56,118 nucleotides of DNA, taken from NCBI GenBank assembly GCA_945907065.1, contig CAMDSC010000015.1:1-56118 (forward strand). The letters run 5' to 3'. Position numbers and translations under genes: made by a program. Below are positions 17,450-28,995 of the stretch, piece by piece. Source of the DNA: Chitinophaga pinensis. Lineage in GTDB: Bacteria; Bacteroidota; Bacteroidia; NS11-12g; UBA9320. Each line of letters begins with the position of its first letter. Position 1 is the stretch's first letter. Below the pieces are notes generated by a model. It ran no database searches, was not told the origin of the DNA, and saw only the letters and a list, made by a program, of their open reading frames with translations.

Positions 17450-18427
17450 CTAATAAATCAACTCAAATACTCCATCTTTAACAAACTTACAATTATATTG
17501 ATTTAGTGGCGAGGAGGCTGGCCCATTTAATACCAAGCCATCTGACGAAAATTTAGACCCATGGCAGGAACAGTAAAAAAGATTATCACTTTTTAAAAAG
17601 TCAATCCCACAGCCAGCATGTGTGCATTGGCCTGAAAAGGCTTTCATTTCATTAGTAGCAACACGTTTTAACCAAATATCTCCTTTTGTTAGACTTAATT
17701 TTTGAAAGCCGCCAAGCATTTTTAGTTCAGGGTAATCTTCTGTGTTAATTTTTAAAACATTAAATGTGGGAATATTTTCTTTTGTTACAATAACCCCGTC
17801 ACCGGTTATCTTTATCGAAAGTAAATCATCTGGCTCGAATTTACCCGGCAGACTTAATAGGTAAAATCCATCCTCTGACTCCACATTTCTAATTTCGAGC
17901 AAATCTCCCTTTTTATTTCTTAATTCAATCAAGACAGTTTTTATATTTTCAGTTTTAAAAAACAGCCCCAGCATATCTTCAGCAATGGCTTCCTGAGGTT
18001 CAATCTTTAAAATTTCAATGGTTTTTAGTGGTGGAATTTTGTATTGAGTTTTAATATTTTCTTTAATTGATTCTAACCCATCACCTGAAAGTTTTATTGA
18101 AAAAAGGCTATCTTTTTCAAATACCATGGGCAATTGAAATTTATAAAATCCAATGGTTGATTCTATAATATTGGTTTCTAATGCATATATCTTTTTATTG
18201 ATTAATTCAACCTTTACGTTTTTAATATTCTCTGCTTTGAAATTTACGGTTAGATTTTCTCCGGCTATGGCTTCATCAGGTATAATGCTTGAGATTTCAA
18301 GAGTTTTTAATGGAGGTACTTTTGGTTTTTCCGGTTCCGGTTTTATTTCCGGCTCATGTTTACAAGCTGAAACTAGAAGCGAAATAATTCCAGAAAAATG
18401 AAGATATAAATAATCCCTTCGTGTCAA
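17450..18427 (-). CDS. Rieske [2Fe-2S] lipoprotein with two Ig-like repeats
   Basis: The 325-residue lipoprotein (lipobox LVSAC) has a C-terminal Rieske domain with the two ligand boxes CTHAGC and CSCHG at about residues 268-290 and the family ending ASSPLNQYNCKF, so it should carry a [2Fe-2S] cluster outside the cytoplasm. Between anchor and Rieske domain are two tandem ~95-residue beta domains that are clear copies of each other: each begins LKTxEI, then xPxEAIA, ExIKxVxxEL and a SIKxxGDG end. The start is TTG, overlapping the stop of the cytochrome c gene (TTGA). It would exchange electrons with that cytochrome or the peroxidase encoded before it. Confidence 0.87.
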   Translation of the reverse strand: MTRRDYLYLHFSGIISLLVSACKHEPEIKPEPEKPKVPPLKTLEISSIIPDEAIAGENLTVNFKAENIKNVKVELINKKIYALETNIIESTIGFYKFQLPMVFEKDSLFSIKLSGDGLESIKENIKTQYKIPPLKTIEILKIEPQEAIAEDMLGLFFKTENIKTVLIELRNKKGDLLEIRNVESEDGFYLLSLPGKFEPDDLLSIKITGDGVIVTKENIPTFNVLKINTEDYPELKMLGGFQKLSLTKGDIWLKRVATNEMKAFSGQCTHAGCGIDFLKSDNLFYCSCHGSKFSSDGLVLNGPASSPLNQYNCKFVKDGVFELIY

Positions 18428-18822
18428 TGTTTTTTATTTTTAATTGGAAGCCTAGCCATATCTTTTCTACTATTTTTTTTCTTATAGGCTAAAAATATTT
18501 TTATCACAGCTAGTTCTTCTTCCGTTACATTTCGTTCGGTTAATTTATCCTCATGCAAAGGGTTCAATATTCTGATATCATATCCGGCCAGTTCTTGCGA
18601 ACTAAAATCAGGATAAATTTCTCTTTTCCCCACTTTTGCGTTATGGCATTTGGCACAGTTAATGTCAAACAAAATTTTTCCTTTATCAAAAAGCTTTACA
18701 TATTCAGAAAGAACGGGTTCCTTCATAGCTTCAGGAAAGTTATAAGTAACCTTTTTTTGGCTACCGCAACCGGCTATTATAATAAATGTGGTAACAGTAA
18801 TAATTGCAATTATTTTTTTCAT
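18424..18822 (-). CDS. Monoheme cytochrome c lipoprotein
   Basis: The 132-residue protein has a lipobox IAGC (Cys19) and one CAKCH heme-attachment site at 56-60. A Met-containing distal region is not obvious; the C-terminal DMARLPI could supply an axial Met. It would be an anchored periplasmic or surface electron carrier. It lies 2 bp after the di-heme peroxidase gene, and its stop overlaps the Rieske gene start, so the three are one translationally coupled unit. The basic Lys-rich tail (KKKNSRKDMARLPIKNKKH) could dock acidic partners. Confidence 0.85.
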   Translation of the reverse strand: MKKIIAIITVTTFIIIAGCGSQKKVTYNFPEAMKEPVLSEYVKLFDKGKILFDINCAKCHNAKVGKREIYPDFSSQELAGYDIRILNPLHEDKLTERNVTEEELAVIKIFLAYKKKNSRKDMARLPIKNKKH

Positions 18823-18824
18823 TT

Positions 18825-20750
18825 TTAATATTCTCCTCCAACTTTTCTTTTGTTTAATGTTTTATTCTTTGAAGTGGGCAGCTTTGTTGGTGGCATTTCA
18901 AAAATTATATCTTCGTTAAGCGATTTCATAAATTGAACCAATTGGTATTTTTCGGTTTTTGTTAAATTCAAGGAATCCACTGAGAGGGTTTGGTTGTCTA
19001 CTTTCAATCCTCTACCAGCTCCGCCTCCGCCATCATAAAAATCTACCACCTCATTTAAATTGGCAAAAACGCCATTGTGCATGTATGGCTTGGTGTATTG
19101 GGCATTGCGAAGCGAACCTGTTCTAAAAGCGTTGGCGGTTTCATCGGCTGGGTTTATTCCAAACCGCCCATTATCATTGCTTAATTTGCTGTAAGCGGTA
19201 TCGGCTGGCACACCCAAAACTTCAAATTCAGAACCCACATACGGCGGTTTTACTCCATTAAATTGTGGTACAAAATGGCAAGTAGCGCATTGGGCTTTAC
19301 TCATAAAAACATTAAAACCCTGCCTTACAGTTTCATCCACTGTTTCTGTTTTATTCATAGCATTATCAAACGGGGCATAGTAATTACTGAACTTACTGTA
19401 GTAAAAACTAATGGCCGACACAACGTGTTCTATGGTGATTTCCTTTTCTTGTGGCGTGTATTTTAATAGTTTGGTAAACGCTTTTTTATAATCCCCACAG
19501 CTCATTATTTTCTTCAAAGTTTCTTTTTCATCGCTAGCCATTTCCAGCGGATTGGTGATTACATCTTTTCCCTGATGTTGCAGAGTTATGTGCTTTCCAT
19601 CAAGCATCAATAAGTGGTTGAAGTTAGCATTAATAAGGGATGGGGTGTTTCTTGGTAAAAAATTTTTATGGTCAAATTGCATCGAAGTTTTTGAAACCGT
19701 ATCTGTAAAGTACTCGGTTGTTTTATGGCATGAAGCACAGCTACGCAAATTATTGGATGATAAAAGAGGGTCGTAAAAAAGTAGCTTTCCTACCTTGTCT
19801 ATTTCGTTTAATGCTTCACCATCATTTACCCTCAAAAAAATCCCTTTTGAATTTTGACCAAAATAAAGCGACTTATCAAAAATGGTTGTACTTTCTTTGT
19901 TTAACGCATAATCTATCAAACTACGGGTCGATACTTTATATTTTTTTATCAGCATTTGGTTAAAAGCAAACAGCGGATTTATAAAATCTTTGATAAAGGT
20001 GAAATGATCAAACTTAGAATTATCGGCCGGTTGGGTTTTTACAAAATCTATAGCTTTGGCATACAAATTAATGTAATCTGTAGACAATGGTGTTTCCGAA
20101 AAACTTTCGTTAAACGAATTGTAAGTGGAATTTACATCCTCCATCATTAGTTGTAATTCAGGAATTACACGTTCAGGACTTGGGCATTCAAAACCGGTAG
20201 TATAAATGGCAGCAAGATTTAATAAATAAAGGCGGTTGCACAAAAAAAAGTGATGATAGGTTTTTAAATTATCGGTAATGGAATCGGCAAAATACGATTG
20301 TGTATTTTCAACCGATTCTTCTATCAAACCTAATAAATGTTGCTTGTCAATGTTTTCTTCATCCAAATAGAGTTGGGCAAGGGTGACCCCGGCACCAATT
20401 CGTTTATATGGCTTTTCCCATTTTTCAAATACTTCAGTTTCCCATTCCACGGGCAATGGACCATTTATTTTTTTGTAAGCCACGGGGTTTAAATACCGCA
20501 ACCAAATGTCCAAACCTTTCATTTGGTTCCTGGTTTGGTTTATTTTATTTTTTATTATTTCAATAGCATCTGCCGATTTTAAATCACTGGCCTCTATAAG
20601 CTTTACCAATTCTGTTTGCTGCGAATTAAAATTGGTTAATTTTTCGGTGTAGCTTGCAATATAAGTATTGGAACGGTCCTTAAAATTTAAAGACAAAATA
20701 GCTATGAGGCTAAATGTCAAAATTATTAAAGGCTTTATTTTTAGTTTCAT
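18825..20750 (-). CDS. Di-heme cytochrome c peroxidase (MauG family) with long N-terminal helical domain
   Basis: The 641-residue exported protein has two heme c sites, CASCH (338-342) and CATCH (488-492), within a C-terminal CCP/MauG domain that also has GKLLFYDPLLSSN, FLPRNTPSL, and FRTGSLRNAQYTKPYMHNGVF. Such enzymes reduce hydrogen peroxide or oxidise partner proteins or metals. The first ~300 residues are helical and carry LDIWLRYLNPVAYKKINGPL, a pattern seen on the long cytochrome c peroxidases of Bacteroidota that also have imelysin-like regions. It is the first gene of the cytochrome/Rieske unit and follows the giant phosphatase-like gene after a strong hairpin. Substrate unknown. Confidence 0.88.
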   Translation of the reverse strand: MKLKIKPLIILTFSLIAILSLNFKDRSNTYIASYTEKLTNFNSQQTELVKLIEASDLKSADAIEIIKNKINQTRNQMKGLDIWLRYLNPVAYKKINGPLPVEWETEVFEKWEKPYKRIGAGVTLAQLYLDEENIDKQHLLGLIEESVENTQSYFADSITDNLKTYHHFFLCNRLYLLNLAAIYTTGFECPSPERVIPELQLMMEDVNSTYNSFNESFSETPLSTDYINLYAKAIDFVKTQPADNSKFDHFTFIKDFINPLFAFNQMLIKKYKVSTRSLIDYALNKESTTIFDKSLYFGQNSKGIFLRVNDGEALNEIDKVGKLLFYDPLLSSNNLRSCASCHKTTEYFTDTVSKTSMQFDHKNFLPRNTPSLINANFNHLLMLDGKHITLQHQGKDVITNPLEMASDEKETLKKIMSCGDYKKAFTKLLKYTPQEKEITIEHVVSAISFYYSKFSNYYAPFDNAMNKTETVDETVRQGFNVFMSKAQCATCHFVPQFNGVKPPYVGSEFEVLGVPADTAYSKLSNDNGRFGINPADETANAFRTGSLRNAQYTKPYMHNGVFANLNEVVDFYDGGGGAGRGLKVDNQTLSVDSLNLTKTEKYQLVQFMKSLNEDIIFEMPPTKLPTSKNKTLNKRKVGGEY

Positions 20751-20851: not shown

Positions 20852-23800
20852 TTAGTTTTTAAGCAATCGGGTAACATAAATGGTATTCGAGGTTGTTATT
20901 TTAACAAAGTAAAGTCCGGTACTTAAGCCCGAAGTATTCAATGTTAATGAAGTTTCGCCTGATGCAGAAATTCTGCTTATGGCAGGAGTTACTTCTTTAC
21001 CCAACATGTCAATAACTTTTATGTCAAGGTTTTCTTCATTTTCCAAATTTATGGATAGTGTTGTATTTCCATTAGTTGGGTTAGGGTATAGTTTTACTCT
21101 TGAGTTTTCTGATAGAACAGGTTTTACACCCAAATTGTGTATGCCAATTCCTTGCAATACAAAATTGTATTCTGGTGTTTCAATATCGTTTGTCTCAATA
21201 ATAATGGATGTTACTTTTCCTTCTATTGTTTTTGGGGTAAACTGAACATTGATAGTTTGAGAACCATTTACCGCAATAGTTATTGGGAAAACAGGAGGAG
21301 TAACTAATCCAAACTCAGTAGCATTATAGCCTTTAAAGCGAATTGATTTTATGGTCAATACACCAGGACCTGCATTTTTAATTTCGAATGGAAGCACTTT
21401 TGAAGTGTTTTTCATTACGTTTCCAAAGTCGGTATTATCTGCAAAACTTGGTGATTCATCGTTATTTGCAATGGTTACATTATTTCCAGCAACACTCACA
21501 TTAGGCACAGATGCTTTGGTGTCAGGATTGAACAAGGTCAACAATTGGCCACCTTCAACAAGTGTTCCTGGAATAGAATAATGGGCTTGGTCAACATAAA
21601 TGAAATTACCAACTCCTAAAATATCTTGCATATCAATCATACCTGATGATTCTTCATCTTGTGTTAAATAGCTAGGACCTCCGCTTACAAATCTTTCAGC
21701 ATCATGAGTTGCTATTAGTTTTACTGCATCCGTAGCAATAGTGTATTGCCAAATTTTGGCTAAATAACTTTGGTTTCCTGGATCTTCCTGAATCATAATA
21801 TGACCAAAATTATCAATTACCATATTATCCATCATTTTAGGACCCTCTGTACCATCTAATACTGCTGTGATTGTTCCACCAATTTCCGGATTTGAAGGAT
21901 TGGTAAATCTCAATCTCCACAAACGGCTAGGTGCTGTAAATGAATTGGTAGTTACAAAATAGAAATCACTTGGATTATTTGGATCCCATGCACCATCTTC
22001 TGGACGCAGGAATTCTGTTACACCGGCTGCATCACTAGCAGTTTCAAGTGTAGCTCCGGTTGAATTTTGAACTTGTCCAAGATCGGCTAAAGTAAAGGCT
22101 GTTCCTGCAGTAGGCACACTACCACTCACTTCCAAAGTTAAACCAGATACTTTTACGCCATATAGTTTACCACCAGTTAATCCGGCTTTTTCTATTTCGT
22201 TACCTGTATTTGTTTTTGTACCAATGTACATATAAACCTGTCCTGGTGTGGCATCATCCGTTCCGGCCACTACTGTTTTGTTGCTTGCAAAAGGACTGGC
22301 TATTGCATTTTCCCAACTGAATTTTCCTAAATATGGTAATTCATAAGTTGTTCCGGCATTTACACCAGTAGCAATATGTGCGAAAGCACGACCTTCAGCA
22401 CCGGCTTCTTCACCGTTCATAAATATGCGTTCTTGAGTTCCTGTGTTTGTAGCAGCATTATAAAAAGCCGTTATAGATGGAAGATCTCCTGCGCAAAAAC
22501 GATTGAAAGCAGATGGTGTACCTGGGTTTGCAGCATTATATGTAGTATAACCACTGCCATTCCAAATATTTACATTTTTAATTAAGTCGCTTCCACCAGT
22601 CACCATAAGGTTCGATTTATTTATAACCCATTTTGATACAAAAGCTCCTTTTTGACCATGAGCATGAGTTGCACCAACAGTGCTAACCATTTCATGGTTC
22701 ATCAATAGTGTAAATGTACCATTTCCATTGTCAAATGCACCTAATCCATCGCCAAGTCCCGCCATTTTATATGTTCCTATTGAATCTCCAACTGTGATTA
22801 AAGCATTAGTTGTAACACCTGGTGCTGCTGATAATAAATAAGGTGATTGCGAACTTTGAGGCCCGGCTCCTAAGAATGAATTCTTAGTATCAGGATTGAA
22901 CAAGGTCAACAATTGACCACCTTCAACCAATGCACCAGGAATTGAATAATGCGCTTGATCAACATAAATAAAATTACCAGCTCCTAATATAGTTTCCATA
23001 TCAATAATTCCAGATGATTCCTCATCTTGTGTTAAGTAACCTGAACCACCTAATACAAAACGATCAGCATCATGCGTAGCAATTAGTTTTACAGCATCTG
23101 TAGCGATAGTGTATTGCCAAATTTTTGCTAAATAGCTTTGGTTTCCTGGATCTTCTTGTATCATTATATGACCGTAATTATCTATTACCATATTATCCAT
23201 CATTTTTGGACCTTCGGTACCATCTAATACTGCTGTGATTGTTCCTCCAGATTCAGGACTGGCAGGATTGGTGAAACGCAATCTCCACAAACGGCTTGGT
23301 GCTGTAAATGAGTTAGTAGTTACAAAATAAAAATCGGCAGGATTTTTTGGATCCCAAGCACCATCTTCTGGACGTAGGAATTCTGTTACGCCAGCAGCAT
23401 CACTAGCAGTTTCTAAGGCTGCACCAGTGCTGTTTTGAACTTGTCCAAGATCGGCTAAAGTAAAGGCTGTTCCTGCAGCAGGCACACTGCCACTTACTTC
23501 TAAAGTTAAGCCGGTAACTTTTACTCCATATAGTTTACCACCGGTTAATCCGGCTTTTTCAATTTCATTACCTGTATTTGTTTTTGTACCAATGTACATA
23601 TAAACTTGTCCTGGTGTGGCATCATCTGTTCCGGCTACTATTGTTTTGTTGCTTGCTAATGGACTAGCTATTGCATTTTCCCAACTGAATTTTCCAAGAT
23701 ATGGTAGTTCGTAAGTCGTTCCGGCATTAGTACCTGTTGCAATATGTGCAAATGCCCTGCCTTCAGCACCGGCTTCTTCTCCATTCATAAAAATGCGTTC

Positions 23801-26800
23801 TTGTGTTCCAAATCCTGTAGTTGCATTATAAAATGCAGATAAAGAAGGAAGGTCACCTGCACAAAAACGATTGAAAGAAGTTGTAGAATCAAAATATGAA
23901 CTTGTACTACGTCTCCAAAGTTTAACATTTTTAACTAGATCGCTTCCACTCACTACACTTAAGTTTGATTTATCAATAATCCATTTTGAAACAAAAGCAC
24001 CTTTTGAACCATGGGTACGGGTAACACCTAATGTATTTCCCATTTCATGGTTCATTAATAATGTGAATGTTCCGTTACCGTTATCAAAAGCACCTAATCC
24101 ATCGCCAAGTCCGGCCATTTTATATGTACCTACTGAATCTCCAACTGTTATTAAAGCATTTGTTTTTACTCCGGCTGAAGCACCAAATAAATAAGGCGAT
24201 TGAGAACTTTGAGGTCCGGCTCCCAAGAAACTATTTTTGGTTTCAGGATTAAACATGGCTAGCAATTGTCCGCCTTCTACTAATTCACCTCCAAGTGAGT
24301 AATGTGCCTGATCGGCATAAATAAACATTCCGGCTCCAAGAATATCTTGCATATCTATAATACCTGAAGCTTCCTCATCTTGGGTCAAATAATTTGTTGA
24401 ACCTGTTGTGAAACGACCGGCATCATGAGTTGCAATAAGCTTTACTACATCAGTAGCAATGGTGTATTGCCAAATTTTAGCTAAATAACTTTGGTTTCCT
24501 GGATCTTCTTGTATCATAATATGACCGTAATTATCAATTACCATATTGTCCATCATTTTTGGACCTTCAGTACCATCTAATACAGCTGTTATGGTTCCAC
24601 CGTTTTCAGGATTTGCAGGGTCAGTAAAACGCAATCTCCATAAACGGCTTGGAGCGGTAAATGAGTTAGTAGTTACAAAATAAAAGTCAGCAGGATTTTT
24701 TGGATCCCAAGCACCATCTTCTGGACGTAGGAATTCTGTTACACCAGCAGCATCACTGGCAGTTTCTAAAGCTGCACCAGTGCTGTTTTGAACTTGTCCT
24801 AGATCGGCTAAAGTAAAGGCTGTTCCTGCTGCAGGAAAGCTACCGCTTACTTCTAAGGTTAAGCCTGCAACTTTTACTCCATATAGTTTACCACCGGTTA
24901 ATCCAGCTTTTTCTATTTCATTACCTGTATTTGTTTTTGCACCAATGTACATATAAACTTGTCCTGGTGTAGCATCATCTGTTCCGGCTACTATTGTTTT
25001 GTTGCTTACAAATGGACTGGCTATTGCATTTTCCCAACTGAATTTTCCAAGATATGGTAATTCATAAGTTGTTCCTGCATTAGTTCCTGTTGCAATATGA
25101 GCAAAGGCACGACCTTCAGCACCAGCTTCTTCTCCATTCATAAATATTTTTTCTTGTGTTCCAAATCCTGTAGAGGCATTATAGAAGGCCTTTGCGGATG
25201 GCAAATCACCTGCACAAAAACGATTGAAAGAAGTGGTAGAATCAAAATATGAATTGGTACTACGTTTCCAAAGTTTTACTTTACTTATTAAATCGCCACC
25301 GCTTACCACCGATAAGTCAGATTTATTAATTACCCATTTAGATACAAATGCACCCTTAGAACCATGTGTACGTGTTATTCCTACAGAATTTCCCATTTCA
25401 TGATTGGCTAATACTGTAAATGTGCCGTTTCCATTATCATAAGCACCCAATCCATCAAGAAGACCAGCCATTTTATATGACCCGATTGAATCACCAACCG
25501 TCATAATCGCTGTTTGCTTTCCACCTATAATGTTAGATTCTAAATAAGGTGCTTTTGAACTGCTTGGCCCGGTTAGACCTTGAGAAATTAAAGGTATAAA
25601 CTGTTTTAAGTTGGCAATTTTGTTAGTTCCTTTTAATCCATAAGTTACCACATGGCTTGTGTTAGTAGTAGCTATTGGAATACCATTTTCCAAAGGACAT
25701 GTTTGTCCAAAGTCGTTGTCGTTTCCTACGGCAATAGTACTATCGTTAATAATGGCTAATCCTTCTGCTTTATCTAAAAGCGGATTCCAGCCATTAGCCA
25801 ATAAATCCATAAACAATTTCTTTTTTACAGGTTTTATGCCATTTGCAGCTAATCCTGCTGAGTCCACTAGAGCTTCTAATGTTTTGCCACCATATAAACC
25901 TGAATTAACATTGGTCGCTCCATTAATGCTTATTATGTAAATATTTTTTTTATCAGTTAAGCCTCTGGCTCCGGCTTCAATTACCAAAAATGAAGTATCA
26001 TTTATTGCAGCCATATCACCAATTTTCCAATCTCTGAATCTTATTTGATCTGCTCCGGTTCCAACCGGTCCATCATTAAGATAGACATACATTTTAGTGG
26101 CATTGGTTGTTGGGTCTATTTCAATAATTCTATGAACTCTTGTCGCTTCACCAACAGATTTAGTTGGATATAAAATAGGGCTTTGAATCATGGCGTACAC
26201 TTTTCCATTAGGAGTAATTGACAAGCCTTCAAATCCACGGTTATTTTTGCGGTATTTAAAACATGAGTCAATATAAATATCCTGAGCTTCAGCCCCGGCT
26301 TGCTTGGCATAAGGTGTAAAACGGTTTATTACCACACCATTTGGGTCAAGTTTCCAAATCGTTGGGCCACCTTCTTCACAAATCCAAAAATTTCCTTGTT
26401 TATCTACTACTATTCCTTCAGGGTCAGTACCCCAAATATCTTTGGCCACTGTTTTTAAATTAAACCGTGAACACACCAAAACCGTATCGATTGATGGAAC
26501 TTCAACAGCAGTGCTTCCAAACCCCGTTGGATTTATTAATCCTGTAGCACCCGTTCCATTCGGACGCTTAATGGTTATTGATTTTAATATTTCCACCGAG
26601 CTTCCCTTTAGTCTTATCCTATAAATTTTAGGAGCAAACGTTGGGAAAGAATACATTTTATCATAAGTTGGGCGGCAACCTGAAAGGTTGGCATTGGCAG
26701 CATCCACATTTACACCCCTGTCACTTACTACCCAAAATTCGGTTCCGTTGGTTCCGGGAATGGGATACATTCCTGAAAATCCACCTTCTCGGAAATTAAC

Positions 26801-26935
26801 GCCCATAAAAGTTCCAATAGTCGGAGAACTTGTGTTTTGATAATCTTTTAAGACACCGATTTGTGCCTTACTAAATGTACTTGCAAAGAGCAAGATACTT
26901 AGAGTCATTAAAATTGATTTGAATTGTTTTTGCAT
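20852..26935 (-). CDS. Giant T9SS-secreted protein: phytase-like esterase domain, three PhoX-like modules, choice-of-anchor D, sorting domain
   Basis: I start at the ATG at 26935, giving a signal peptide ending SKAQ and 2027 residues; a TTG/ATG start 8 codons earlier is less likely. Residues about 30-440 match the 'esterase-like activity of phytase' propeller: EGFSGMYPI, FWVVSDRGV, DPEGIVVDKQGNFWICEEGGP and NRGFEGLSI. Then come three tandem 451-residue modules (456-906, 907-1357, 1358-1807) that resemble DUF839/PhoX-like propellers (GDGLGAFDNGNGTF, FLRPEDGAWDP). Next is a choice-of-anchor D beta domain (about 1815-1925, FADNTDFGNV) and a C-terminal T9SS sorting domain (KLYPNPTNG...LYFVKI...VTRLLKN). 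Likely a surface or released phosphate-liberating enzyme; the PhoX-like call is inference. Confidence 0.88.
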   Translation of the reverse strand: MQKQFKSILMTLSILLFASTFSKAQIGVLKDYQNTSSPTIGTFMGVNFREGGFSGMYPIPGTNGTEFWVVSDRGVNVDAANANLSGCRPTYDKMYSFPTFAPKIYRIRLKGSSVEILKSITIKRPNGTGATGLINPTGFGSTAVEVPSIDTVLVCSRFNLKTVAKDIWGTDPEGIVVDKQGNFWICEEGGPTIWKLDPNGVVINRFTPYAKQAGAEAQDIYIDSCFKYRKNNRGFEGLSITPNGKVYAMIQSPILYPTKSVGEATRVHRIIEIDPTTNATKMYVYLNDGPVGTGADQIRFRDWKIGDMAAINDTSFLVIEAGARGLTDKKNIYIISINGATNVNSGLYGGKTLEALVDSAGLAANGIKPVKKKLFMDLLANGWNPLLDKAEGLAIINDSTIAVGNDNDFGQTCPLENGIPIATTNTSHVVTYGLKGTNKIANLKQFIPLISQGLTGPSSSKAPYLESNIIGGKQTAIMTVGDSIGSYKMAGLLDGLGAYDNGNGTFTVLANHEMGNSVGITRTHGSKGAFVSKWVINKSDLSVVSGGDLISKVKLWKRSTNSYFDSTTSFNRFCAGDLPSAKAFYNASTGFGTQEKIFMNGEEAGAEGRAFAHIATGTNAGTTYELPYLGKFSWENAIASPFVSNKTIVAGTDDATPGQVYMYIGAKTNTGNEIEKAGLTGGKLYGVKVAGLTLEVSGSFPAAGTAFTLADLGQVQNSTGAALETASDAAGVTEFLRPEDGAWDPKNPADFYFVTTNSFTAPSRLWRLRFTDPANPENGGTITAVLDGTEGPKMMDNMVIDNYGHIMIQEDPGNQSYLAKIWQYTIATDVVKLIATHDAGRFTTGSTNYLTQDEEASGIIDMQDILGAGMFIYADQAHYSLGGELVEGGQLLAMFNPETKNSFLGAGPQSSQSPYLFGASAGVKTNALITVGDSVGTYKMAGLGDGLGAFDNGNGTFTLLMNHEMGNTLGVTRTHGSKGAFVSKWIIDKSNLSVVSGSDLVKNVKLWRRSTSSYFDSTTSFNRFCAGDLPSLSAFYNATTGFGTQERIFMNGEEAGAEGRAFAHIATGTNAGTTYELPYLGKFSWENAIASPLASNKTIVAGTDDATPGQVYMYIGTKTNTGNEIEKAGLTGGKLYGVKVTGLTLEVSGSVPAAGTAFTLADLGQVQNSTGAALETASDAAGVTEFLRPEDGAWDPKNPADFYFVTTNSFTAPSRLWRLRFTNPASPESGGTITAVLDGTEGPKMMDNMVIDNYGHIMIQEDPGNQSYLAKIWQYTIATDAVKLIATHDADRFVLGGSGYLTQDEESSGIIDMETILGAGNFIYVDQAHYSIPGALVEGGQLLTLFNPDTKNSFLGAGPQSSQSPYLLSAAPGVTTNALITVGDSIGTYKMAGLGDGLGAFDNGNGTFTLLMNHEMVSTVGATHAHGQKGAFVSKWVINKSNLMVTGGSDLIKNVNIWNGSGYTTYNAANPGTPSAFNRFCAGDLPSITAFYNAATNTGTQERIFMNGEEAGAEGRAFAHIATGVNAGTTYELPYLGKFSWENAIASPFASNKTVVAGTDDATPGQVYMYIGTKTNTGNEIEKAGLTGGKLYGVKVSGLTLEVSGSVPTAGTAFTLADLGQVQNSTGATLETASDAAGVTEFLRPEDGAWDPNNPSDFYFVTTNSFTAPSRLWRLRFTNPSNPEIGGTITAVLDGTEGPKMMDNMVIDNFGHIMIQEDPGNQSYLAKIWQYTIATDAVKLIATHDAERFVSGGPSYLTQDEESSGMIDMQDILGVGNFIYVDQAHYSIPGTLVEGGQLLTLFNPDTKASVPNVSVAGNNVTIANNDESPSFADNTDFGNVMKNTSKVLPFEIKNAGPGVLTIKSIRFKGYNATEFGLVTPPVFPITIAVNGSQTINVQFTPKTIEGKVTSIIIETNDIETPEYNFVLQGIGIHNLGVKPVLSENSRVKLYPNPTNGNTTLSINLENEENLDIKVIDMLGKEVTPAISRISASGETSLTLNTSGLSTGLYFVKITTSNTIYVTRLLKN
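21515..22864 (-). repeat. Internal module repeat 3 of the giant gene
   Basis: Third copy, ending NPDTK. Relative to copies 1 and 2 it carries a 5-residue insertion in the segment NGSGYTTYNAANPGTPSAF, before FNRFCAGDLPS, and it ends earlier, because the linker SFLGA is replaced by the start of the choice-of-anchor D region. Confidence 0.88.
22865..24217 (-). repeat. Internal module repeat 2 of the giant gene
   Basis: Second copy, exactly 1353 bp, starting GPQSSQSPYL. Long stretches, such as KTNTGNEIEKAGLTGGKLYG and the 50 residues after FLRPEDGAWDP, are identical or nearly so to copies 1 and 3. Confidence 0.9.
24218..25570 (-). repeat. Internal module repeat 1 of the giant gene
   Basis: The first of three in-frame copies, from GPSSSKAPYL to just before GPQSSQSPYL, 1353 bp. 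Its N-terminal part differs most from the other copies (LDGLGAYDN instead of GDGLGAFDN). Confidence 0.9.
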
Positions 26936-27064
26936 GTTTTGAATTTTAGTGCAAAGCAACTTTCAACATATTATCAAATTCATTTTATTAAGTTATGGTT
27001 TAGTAACTAGAAAGTTAAATATGTTATCTTAAATTTAACACGTAATGATAAAACTAATGATTCT

Positions 27065-28153
27065 TTAAAAAGAAATAGCCAGTGAAGTAGTTATAAAATA
27101 GTTTTGATTAGAATTGGAATTAAAGATTTTTTCTTTTGCTGATAATCCTCTTATTTCACATCGAAAAAGGCTATTTTCAGACAATAAATAATCGAAGTTG
27201 GCTGAATATCCAATAGTTTGAAATGCATTAGGAGTATAAATAATGACTCCTTTTTTATCTGAGTAATATTCAGCTCGAAAGGCAATTCGGGTTTTAGATG
27301 TTGTTGAATATTTAATAATAGCAACAGGAGAATACCAAGTATCAAACCCTGAAAGTTTATTAATAGAATCGCGATGTTGTTGGATTCCAATATCAAAACC
27401 TGCAGTTAATCCCAACTTTTTTGTGAGTTGAAATTGCCCATAAAAATTATTAAAATAACGCCATTTTTTTAAACTATCAGGTTGTTCGTTTCCAACGTAT
27501 GTGCTCCAATTTATAATAGTATTGGCTTTTGGTTTATAAGTTATTTGAGTTCCGAATGCCGGAGTATGGTTGTTATTTATTTTTTGTATTCGTTGCCAGC
27601 CTCTAAGGTACATGGCGGCTAAATATAGTTTTTCATTTTTTGAAGTATAGCCAAGTTTTATTCCGGTTTCATAATAGGGGGAATTATCTGCTAAAATACT
27701 TCGTGTTAAATTCCAGCAATCTTTACCAATCGCACTTTCAAAACCAATATGCGACGGCATAATTCCTGCATCTAACCAAATATTTTTTTTGTTTAAAATT
27801 TTAATCCCGGCATTAGCTTCATAAGTATTTCTAAGCATTCTTTGTTCTACGGCCATATTATATTGAGGATATGTGCCTGCCATAAATGCGAGGTTACTTC
27901 TTGTTTGGCCGTTGGAGTAGTTAGCCTTTACCATTCCAATATTTAAGTTCACCTCATTGTGCTTATTAAAGCTATAAAAAAAAGGTTCTCGTAAATGATT
28001 GGAAGGTTTACTAAAATCATAGCAATAATATGTTTCCAAATAACCTGAAAAATTTATAATTGATTTTTTTGTTAAGCTTGTATCTTGAGCTTTAGTATGA
28101 ATATGTACTAAATTTACAAGTAGGAGAATTACAGTTGTTAAAAGGGGTTTCAA
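27065..28153 (-). CDS. Porin-like outer-membrane barrel (BBP2/OmpL type)
   Basis: The 362-residue protein begins with a signal peptide ending TKAQ and then NFSGYLETYYCYDFSKPSNHL, the opening of the 'putative beta-barrel porin-2, OmpL-like' family. It continues as a regular run of amphipathic strands, ends in ITTSLAISF, and keeps the family's conserved DAGIMPSHIGFESA region. It would let small anions or other solutes through the outer membrane. The start is TTG at 28153. A 15-bp perfect inverted repeat lies 8 bp before it. Position between a PhoB-type regulator and the phytase/PhoX-like protein suggests phosphate or organophosphate passage, by context only. Confidence 0.8.
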   Translation of the reverse strand: MKPLLTTVILLLVNLVHIHTKAQDTSLTKKSIINFSGYLETYYCYDFSKPSNHLREPFFYSFNKHNEVNLNIGMVKANYSNGQTRSNLAFMAGTYPQYNMAVEQRMLRNTYEANAGIKILNKKNIWLDAGIMPSHIGFESAIGKDCWNLTRSILADNSPYYETGIKLGYTSKNEKLYLAAMYLRGWQRIQKINNNHTPAFGTQITYKPKANTIINWSTYVGNEQPDSLKKWRYFNNFYGQFQLTKKLGLTAGFDIGIQQHRDSINKLSGFDTWYSPVAIIKYSTTSKTRIAFRAEYYSDKKGVIIYTPNAFQTIGYSANFDYLLSENSLFRCEIRGLSAKEKIFNSNSNQNYFITTSLAISF

Positions 28154-28247: not shown

Positions 28248-28922
28248 CTAATCTTCCAATTTATAGCCTACACCTTTTATTGTAGAAATAAGTTTTTCGC
28301 CAATTTTTTCTCTTATTTTTCTAATATGAACATCAATAGTTCTATCAACCACATATACATCATCGCCCCATACTTCTGATAAGATTTTTTCTCTTGTAAA
28401 AACTTTTCCAGGTTTGGTGGCTAATAAAAATAAAAGGTCAAATTCTTTTTTGGGTAATACCATTTTTTTACCTTCTACTGAAATAGAATAAGATGATCGG
28501 TCAATAATTAAATCACCAACTGTAAGAGTTATTTGCTCATAATCAGGATTTTTACCGCGTTTTAGTATGGCTTTAATTCTACTTAGAAGTACTCGTGGCT
28601 TTACTGGTTTATTAATATAATCATCAGCTCCGGCTTCAAATCCTGCTATTTCAGAATATTCTTCAGAACGGGCTGTTAAAAAAATGATAAAAATATTTTT
28701 TGTATCTGGCTGCAATTTTATTTGACGGCAGGCTTCAATACCATCCATTATTGGCATCATCACGTCCATTAAAATAAGATCAGGTTTAAATGTTTTGGAT
28801 TTTTGAATGGCTTCTATACCATTTGCAGCAGTTTCTACCTGATAATCTTCACGTTCGAGCAGGTATTTAATGAATTCAAGAATATCTGGTTCATCATCTA
28901 CAATCAGTATTTTAGGGGGCAT
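28248..28922 (-). CDS. OmpR/PhoB-family response regulator
   Basis: A full two-domain regulator: receiver with ILIVDDEPDILEF, phosphoacceptor Asp in LILMDVMMPIMDG, Thr in IIFLTARSEE and Lys in YINKPVKPR, then a winged-helix DNA-binding domain ending DVHIRKIREKIGEKLISTIKGVGYKLED. I chose the ATG at 28922 because MPPKILIVDDE fits the family. However, a TTG 8 codons earlier (28946) has an AGGAGG 6 nt upstream (28953-28958), the best Shine-Dalgarno in the window, so a 232-residue form is possible. No sensor kinase is adjacent. It probably controls the porin and giant gene downstream, and a PhoB role is inferred from them. Confidence 0.93.
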   Translation of the reverse strand: MPPKILIVDDEPDILEFIKYLLEREDYQVETAANGIEAIQKSKTFKPDLILMDVMMPIMDGIEACRQIKLQPDTKNIFIIFLTARSEEYSEIAGFEAGADDYINKPVKPRVLLSRIKAILKRGKNPDYEQITLTVGDLIIDRSSYSISVEGKKMVLPKKEFDLLFLLATKPGKVFTREKILSEVWGDDVYVVDRTIDVHIRKIREKIGEKLISTIKGVGYKLED

Positions 28923-28995
28923 ATTATTTTTTAAACCTTTTATCAAAATTCGCCTCCTAAAATTAACTGTACGTTATGAACATATTATTACAACA

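Follow-up and report, generated by a model that had tools for sequence, protein, structure and literature searches.

Domain Architecture and Export Signals of the Gene

The analyzed window, a stretch of 56,118 nucleotides from Chitinophaga pinensis (contig CAMDSC010000015.1; genome G000 in the following), contains a large gene at positions 20,852 to 26,935 on the reverse strand, whose predicted product combines a phytase-like propeller with three modules related to the phosphatase PhoX. According to the open reading frame list and its translation, the product comprises 2027 amino acids from an ATG at 26,935. The open frame is single and uninterrupted (20,852–26,959, reverse strand; 2035 residues counted from a TTG at 26,959), and the likely start is the ATG, which is the ninth codon counted from this TTG; the orthologue in the congeneric genome G004 begins at the equivalent methionine. 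The predicted Sec signal peptide, MQKQFKSILMTLSILLFASTFSKAQ (beginning MQKQFKSILM), is without a twin-arginine motif.

Searches against Pfam and NCBIfam gave the domain order of a phytase-like head (PF13449), three PF05787 stretches (E = 1e-37 in all), a choice-of-anchor D domain and a type A tail of the type IX secretion system (T9SS), with the modules lying between head and anchor domain as the earlier note had described. The head (25,709–26,785, reverse strand, as for all domains of the gene) matched PF13449 over its full length (model positions 4–284 of 284, E = 2.3e-49, 173.8 bits against a cut-off of 27.6) and carries the acidic motifs REGG, SDRG, PEG, CEE, FEG and AEG, whose acids are invariant across 39 relatives. 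Based on the name of this family, phosphoester hydrolysis is predicted for the head. The modules are followed by the choice-of-anchor D or Ig-like spacer domain (21,182–21,505; NF012200, E = 4.8e-14; PF22544) and the type A C-terminal sorting domain (20,855–21,091; TIGR04183, E = 7.2e-15, 54.7 bits against a cut-off of 23; PF18962, E = 1.7e-14). The T9SS translocon gene (SprA/Sov) was also found in the genome (SprA_N, E = 5e-159), so that both features of T9SS type A cargo, tail and translocon, are present for this multi-module protein. The PhoX and phytase-like matches of this gene are the only ones in the 2.7 Mb, 99.9% complete genome. An Rfam search of the whole window returned no match.

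The Three Modules Are Predicted PhoX-Type Phosphatases

The modules measure 442–447 amino acids with a repeat period of 451 and represent residues 467–908 (copy 1; 24,236–25,561), 918–1359 (copy 2; 22,883–24,208) and 1369–1815 (copy 3; 21,515–22,855), the third being five codons longer. When searched singly, copies 1 to 3 passed the PF05787 cut-off of 24 bits with 45.8, 50.5 and 50.4 bits (E = 6.3e-12, 2.5e-13 and 2.6e-13), these single-module matches spanning only model positions ~231–450 of 515. An AlphaFold2 model of copy 2, built on an alignment of 68 sequences, reached a pLDDT of 96.3 and a pTM of 0.94. Its top match in Foldseek was Pseudomonas fluorescens PhoX (E = 2.3e-17; next family 3.4e-7), and VIA-align likewise ranked PhoX (4a9v) first (Z 27.6, rmsd 3.3, 387 residues), ahead of a runner-up with Z 25.5 over 279 residues. 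In a fold search with an 887-residue model of head and module, the matches listed were almost all to the module and not to the head; when PDB sequences were searched by phmmer with residues 1–461 or with copy 1, nothing beyond short propeller matches was obtained.

In a joint alignment, copies 1 to 3 all retain the PhoX residues D69, E90, C179, E194, E273, D292, R385, E387, D479 and D494 (numbered as in the 3ZWU chain). Apart from R385 and D292, these positions are taken as ligands on the basis of their conservation. Since each module singly passes the PF05787 cut-off, the model matches the PhoX fold and the ligand positions are conserved, the assignment of the modules as PhoX-type, predicted phosphomonoesterases is supported by sequence and model. 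The PhoX active site is known to hold two Fe3+ and three Ca2+ ions with an unusual cysteine ligand (PMC4223295), and R385 and D292 were named as active-site residues of this enzyme (PMC11098088). The suggestion in the earlier note that one secreted polypeptide may offer four propeller active sites thus appears a fair reading, in accordance with the profile searches on head and modules and with the structure prediction that it had proposed.

Gene Conversion within the Catalytic Core

The three copies are arranged in tandem and in frame with start-to-start spacings of 1353 and 1368 bp. Pairwise identities amount to 81–87% for protein and 79–83% for DNA (80–87% and 77–83% with slightly different module ends), and synonymous divergence according to Nei-Gojobori is high (dS 0.66–0.93, dN/dS 0.14–0.16); purifying selection is predicted to keep all three copies functional. 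Runs of more than 20 identical residues, far beyond chance, are shared as described earlier. Near-identity is confined to the central ~250 residues (91–95% identical between copies), so the earlier description of nearly identical modules does not hold for the modules as a whole. The copy 3 length difference had been described as an insertion. This was rejected: the longer form recurs in G004 (copy 3), G006 (copy 2) and G005 (both copies) and is therefore probably ancestral, the five codons having been lost in the copy 1/2 lineage.

Trees were calculated for ten modules from four genomes. In the outer parts (codons 1–125 and from 375 on), copies 2 and 3 of G000 and G004 group by position, and a forced within-genome grouping was rejected (approximately unbiased (AU) test, p = 0.015). 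In the core (codons 125–375), the copies of one genome cluster together, and a tree constrained to the orthologous grouping is worse by 168 log-likelihood units (AU p ~1e-44). Site patterns of copies 2 and 3 showed within-genome sharing at 52 sites and orthologue sharing at 2 for codons 161–360, as compared to 8 and 17 for codons 81–120. Codons 1–40 also share bases within genomes (15 versus 2 sites), so more than one conversion tract may be involved. Intragenic gene conversion homogenized the catalytic core after the species split, and the duplications are older than that split. Of the two origins formerly considered for the likeness of the copies, conversion was thus retained.

The other origin, a recent tandem duplication, or alternatively an assembly artefact, would account for the long identical residue runs, and it could apply to the proteins L051, L078 and L115, in which module pairs are 97–100% identical. 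For this gene it is refuted and carries practically no weight, because dS is high, the triplication predates the split of species with 85% identical orthologues and the outer regions group by position across species. Moreover, an artefact is unlikely in view of the hundreds of sites that distinguish the copies and of the three-copy gene in the independently assembled metagenome-assembled genome (MAG) G004 (L048). Codon- or protein-level constraint, instead of gene conversion, could also keep divergence low, since catalytic cores evolve slowly and the center has the lowest dN too. Constraint cannot, however, make same-genome paralogues share bases that differ from their orthologues, as is the case at 52 against 2 sites in the core with the reverse pattern in codons 81–120, and this explanation is considered very improbable in comparison with intragenic conversion.

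Occurrence in the Genus and in Wider Relatives

The gene was found in four of seven genomes of the genus (G000, G004, G005, G006) and is missing from G001–G003. It encodes three modules in G000, the same three in G004 (85% identical overall), two in G005 and at least two in G006, where the contig is cut. In a scan of species genomes, 199 places encoding relatives were detected, 80 of which were kept, mostly from lake and pond Bacteroidota MAGs and from cyanobacteria (Pseudanabaena, Dolichospermum, Nostoc and a Cylindrospermum plasmid). Complete frames contained one module in 50 cases, two in 17 and three in 2; among the complete frames examined, three modules occur only in this gene, its G004 orthologue and L109. 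The expectation that copy number varies was borne out in the genus and, with one to three modules, more widely. A segment related to the phytase-like head was present in 52 relatives, and the plan of head, module, anchor domain and T9SS tail recurs in many Bacteroidota.

Copies within one protein are 64–100% identical. Since they group by position in some lineages and within the protein in others, duplication or conversion happened repeatedly in the module family, as deduced from the sequences. In the G005 protein (L125; G005:C3:172497-175916), a calcineurin-like metallophosphoesterase domain (PF00149) takes the place of the phytase-like head before two modules; by this sequence comparison, the N-terminal head is exchangeable. 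Furthermore, modules ~64–68% identical to that of this gene were encountered in filamentous freshwater cyanobacteria (L068, L082, L090, L101 and L077), in one case on a plasmid (L077, Cylindrospermum NIES-4074 plasmid3), which suggests module transfer between phyla.

Some relatives deserve mention in their own right. At L108:12505-13824, a second module gene stands in tandem with the first (likewise in L118); its module shows Cys to Ser, Glu to Lys and Arg to Gln at active-site positions and is possibly an inactive copy. The two modules of L051:1643-4306 are 100% identical in protein, which points to conversion, to a duplication of very recent date or to an effect of the assembly. L079 and L097, titled after the Gram-positive species Actinomyces viscosus and Bifidobacterium breve, are metagenome bins with Bacteroidota-type module proteins, and these titles are probably wrong.

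A Cyanobacterial Family Links Psip1 and PhoX by Sequence

The phosphatase Psip1 was described as a high-affinity enzyme convergent with PhoX (PMC11098088). Psip1 had no match in Pfam. In plain hhalign comparisons, the modules aligned significantly neither with two PhoX nor with two Psip1 sequences (9% for the latter), and Psip1 versus PhoX was likewise not significant; an intermediate family was therefore needed. At a database size of one million, a hidden Markov model (HMM) of a cyanobacterial family (44 sequences) gave E-values of 2.6e-38 for the module, of 1.6e-22 and 9e-22 for Psip1 and of 3e-5 for one PhoX, and no match to the phytase-like propeller, which served as fold control. Members of this family pass the Pfam PhoX model with E-values down to 1.2e-13. 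The family comprises L148, L150, L153 and related cyanobacterial loci, some of them with choice-of-anchor I domains or RTX repeats. Since it bridges module, Psip1 and PhoX but not the phytase-like propeller, the sequence comparison tends to favor distant common ancestry of Psip1 and PhoX over the published convergence.

Neighboring Genes and the MauG/Cytochrome Operon

Downstream of the gene, a long-form MauG-family di-heme enzyme of 641 residues with two CxxCH motifs (18,825–20,750; PF03150, E = 9.8e-36) and a small mono-heme cytochrome c-like lipoprotein with one CxxCH motif (18,424–18,822; weak PF00034/PF13442 matches) are encoded, the latter being located beside MauG in 31 loci. Upstream, genes for a BBP2/OmpL-like porin (27,065–28,153; PF07642, E = 1e-93), a neighbor in G005 too and not in G004, and for a PhoB-like response regulator (28,248–28,946; TIGR02154, 224.5 bits versus 296.2; NF053854, 220 versus 270) were identified. 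All four genes lie on the reverse strand. A Rieske-type lipoprotein gene (17,450–18,427) adjoins the MauG/cytochrome pair; it was also observed in G004 and not found in the other loci searched.

A MauG gene occurs within 700 bp downstream in 32 of 57 non-cyanobacterial loci having at least 1.5 kb of downstream sequence. Because six MauG-adjacent loci and one truncated frame are without a phytase-like head, the link is to the PhoX-type module. Among 38 genomes of the taxonomic family, long-form MauG was restricted to 8 of the 12 PhoX carriers and absent from the remaining 26 genomes (hypergeometric p = 1e-5, uncorrected for kinship of the genomes), and G034 encodes two PhoX and two long-form MauG proteins side by side. 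PhoX carriers forming exceptions are G005, G006 (incomplete), G008 and G036, the last having a single-domain PhoX whose start resembles a twin-arginine signal, with MauG missing from the stretch read. The PhoX genes of the family in L040 and L045 follow purK, purE and a gene for a Cys-rich protein of ~190 residues (names assigned by eye) and do not lie beside MauG. Trp176 of the module, adjoining the Glu equivalent to E273, is Trp in every MauG-linked module (45 of 45), as compared to 78% of the modules without this link. Its candidacy as a MauG target was dropped, because the MauG-adjacent PhoX of L041 has His at this position.

A phoX-mauG operon was described throughout Flavobacterium and proposed as one reason for PhoX inactivity in Pseudomonas putida (PMC8812569). 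In F. johnsoniae, strong induction upon phosphate depletion was reported for Fjoh_2478 (PhoX-like) as well as for Fjoh_2477 (MauG-like) (PMC8115612), and deletion of this phoX lowers inducible phosphatase activity (PMC8812569). Based on this induction and on the nearby PhoB-like regulator, we infer by analogy that the gene may be controlled by phosphate starvation. Iron loading of Tat-exported PhoX was speculated to take place in the cytoplasm (PMC4223295). Since a Sec-exported protein could not be loaded there, a dedicated extracytoplasmic partner is attractive. Sec/T9SS PhoX polyenzymes might accordingly rely on long-form MauG and the small cytochrome c for building, oxidizing or modifying the active site outside the cytoplasm, possibly as a general maturation system of Bacteroidota phosphatases, a tentative proposal toward which we lean less than away from it.

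Proposed Function and Significance

Phosphate is often limiting in freshwater, where Bacteroidota are major recyclers of organic matter. The protein is considered likely to represent a surface-anchored, multi-headed, phosphate-scavenging enzyme, its activity being predicted. It would be exported via Sec, fold in the periplasm and cross the outer membrane through the T9SS; judging from the tail type, the tail would probably be cleaved off and the protein fixed to the cell surface. There, the three PhoX-type propellers, each with a full set of Fe3+/Ca2+-site residues, would hydrolyze phosphomonoesters and the N-terminal phytase-like propeller may attack a different set of phosphoesters. Repetition of the catalytic domain would multiply the active sites per export event. 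Purifying selection maintains the three copies, intragenic conversion keeps their catalytic core uniform between diverging edges, and the neighboring MauG-type di-heme enzyme and small cytochrome c would be the probable maturation partners.

Several points weigh against this function. The active-site match concerns alignment positions only, metal geometry aside, and 'phytase-like' is a family label from whose name the function of the head is derived. A search of the window for a classical Pho box (CTGTCAT repeats as in E. coli) was negative, and the adjacent response regulator scores below the PhoB equivalog cut-offs. Furthermore, F. johnsoniae PhoX was inactive when expressed in P. putida (PMC8812569), so an intact sequence is no guarantee of stand-alone activity. 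It may also be that catalysis is limited to some of the heads, the additional modules acting mainly in binding or as spacers, so as to increase avidity for organic phosphate or to hold the enzyme out from the surface. The N- and C-terminal parts of the copies do diverge, and the module at L108:12505-13824 has lost active-site residues, so degenerate copies exist in the module family. In the gene studied, however, none of the three copies departs from PhoX at the ten positions checked, dN/dS is ~0.15 and it is the catalytic core that stays uniform; partial catalysis is therefore regarded as rather unlikely, and the enzyme with all heads active is preferred.

With several phosphatase heads, an exchangeable N-terminus and a changing copy number, one exported chain would make the phosphate release from each secretion event both larger and more diverse. 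Three aspects are of most interest: the core to which conversion is limited, the connection of Psip1 with PhoX by sequence and the conserved operon of MauG and cytochrome. The first represents a clean natural case of concerted evolution within one gene, and the intermediate cyanobacterial family makes the claim of Psip1/PhoX convergence directly testable. The operon is conserved well beyond Flavobacterium and offers a testable reason for the failure of a Bacteroidota PhoX in a heterologous host; if the maturation proposal is true, it would constitute a general system for Bacteroidota phosphatases.

Comparison with Known Systems

Compared to P. fluorescens PhoX (4A9V/3ZWU), the modules are alike in predicted fold, in Pfam membership and in their active-site positions, among them R385, D292 and the Cys ligand. 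They differ in being only ~12–16% identical, in forming a compact domain of ~442 residues and in occurring three per chain; moreover, the protein carries Sec/T9SS instead of Tat export signals and a fused phytase-like head. Tat export is usual for PhoX and does not define it. In Flavobacterium, a PhoX-type phosphatase likewise lies beside a MauG-family gene (Fjoh_2478/Fjoh_2477), although Fjoh_2478, likened here by description, is a lipoprotein and not a T9SS polyprotein. New in relation to that report are the breadth of the operon, the small cytochrome, the long form of MauG and the link to T9SS polyenzymes.

MED4 Psip1 (PMM1416) shares the motif order of the modules. It has Lys at the R385 position, no equivalent of D292 and no Pfam match, whereas Arg and Asp occupy these two positions in the modules, which pass PF05787; the Psip1 sequence used (L191, from a genome taken as Prochlorococcus MED4) shows this Lys at position 432, as published. 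By these two discriminating positions, the predicted phosphatase modules are PhoX-like rather than Psip1-like. Fusions in other Bacteroidota and in cyanobacteria (e.g. Cytophaga aurantiaca, Taibaiella, Flavipsychrobacter) follow the same plan of head, module and tail with modules ~60–75% identical, and phytase-like and PhoX-type fusions elsewhere mostly contain one or two modules, as opposed to three here. Such fusions and multiple domains were already noted for relatives of Psip1, which can bear more than one Psip1 domain or one that is phytase-like (PMC11098088), and the class is widespread but little described.

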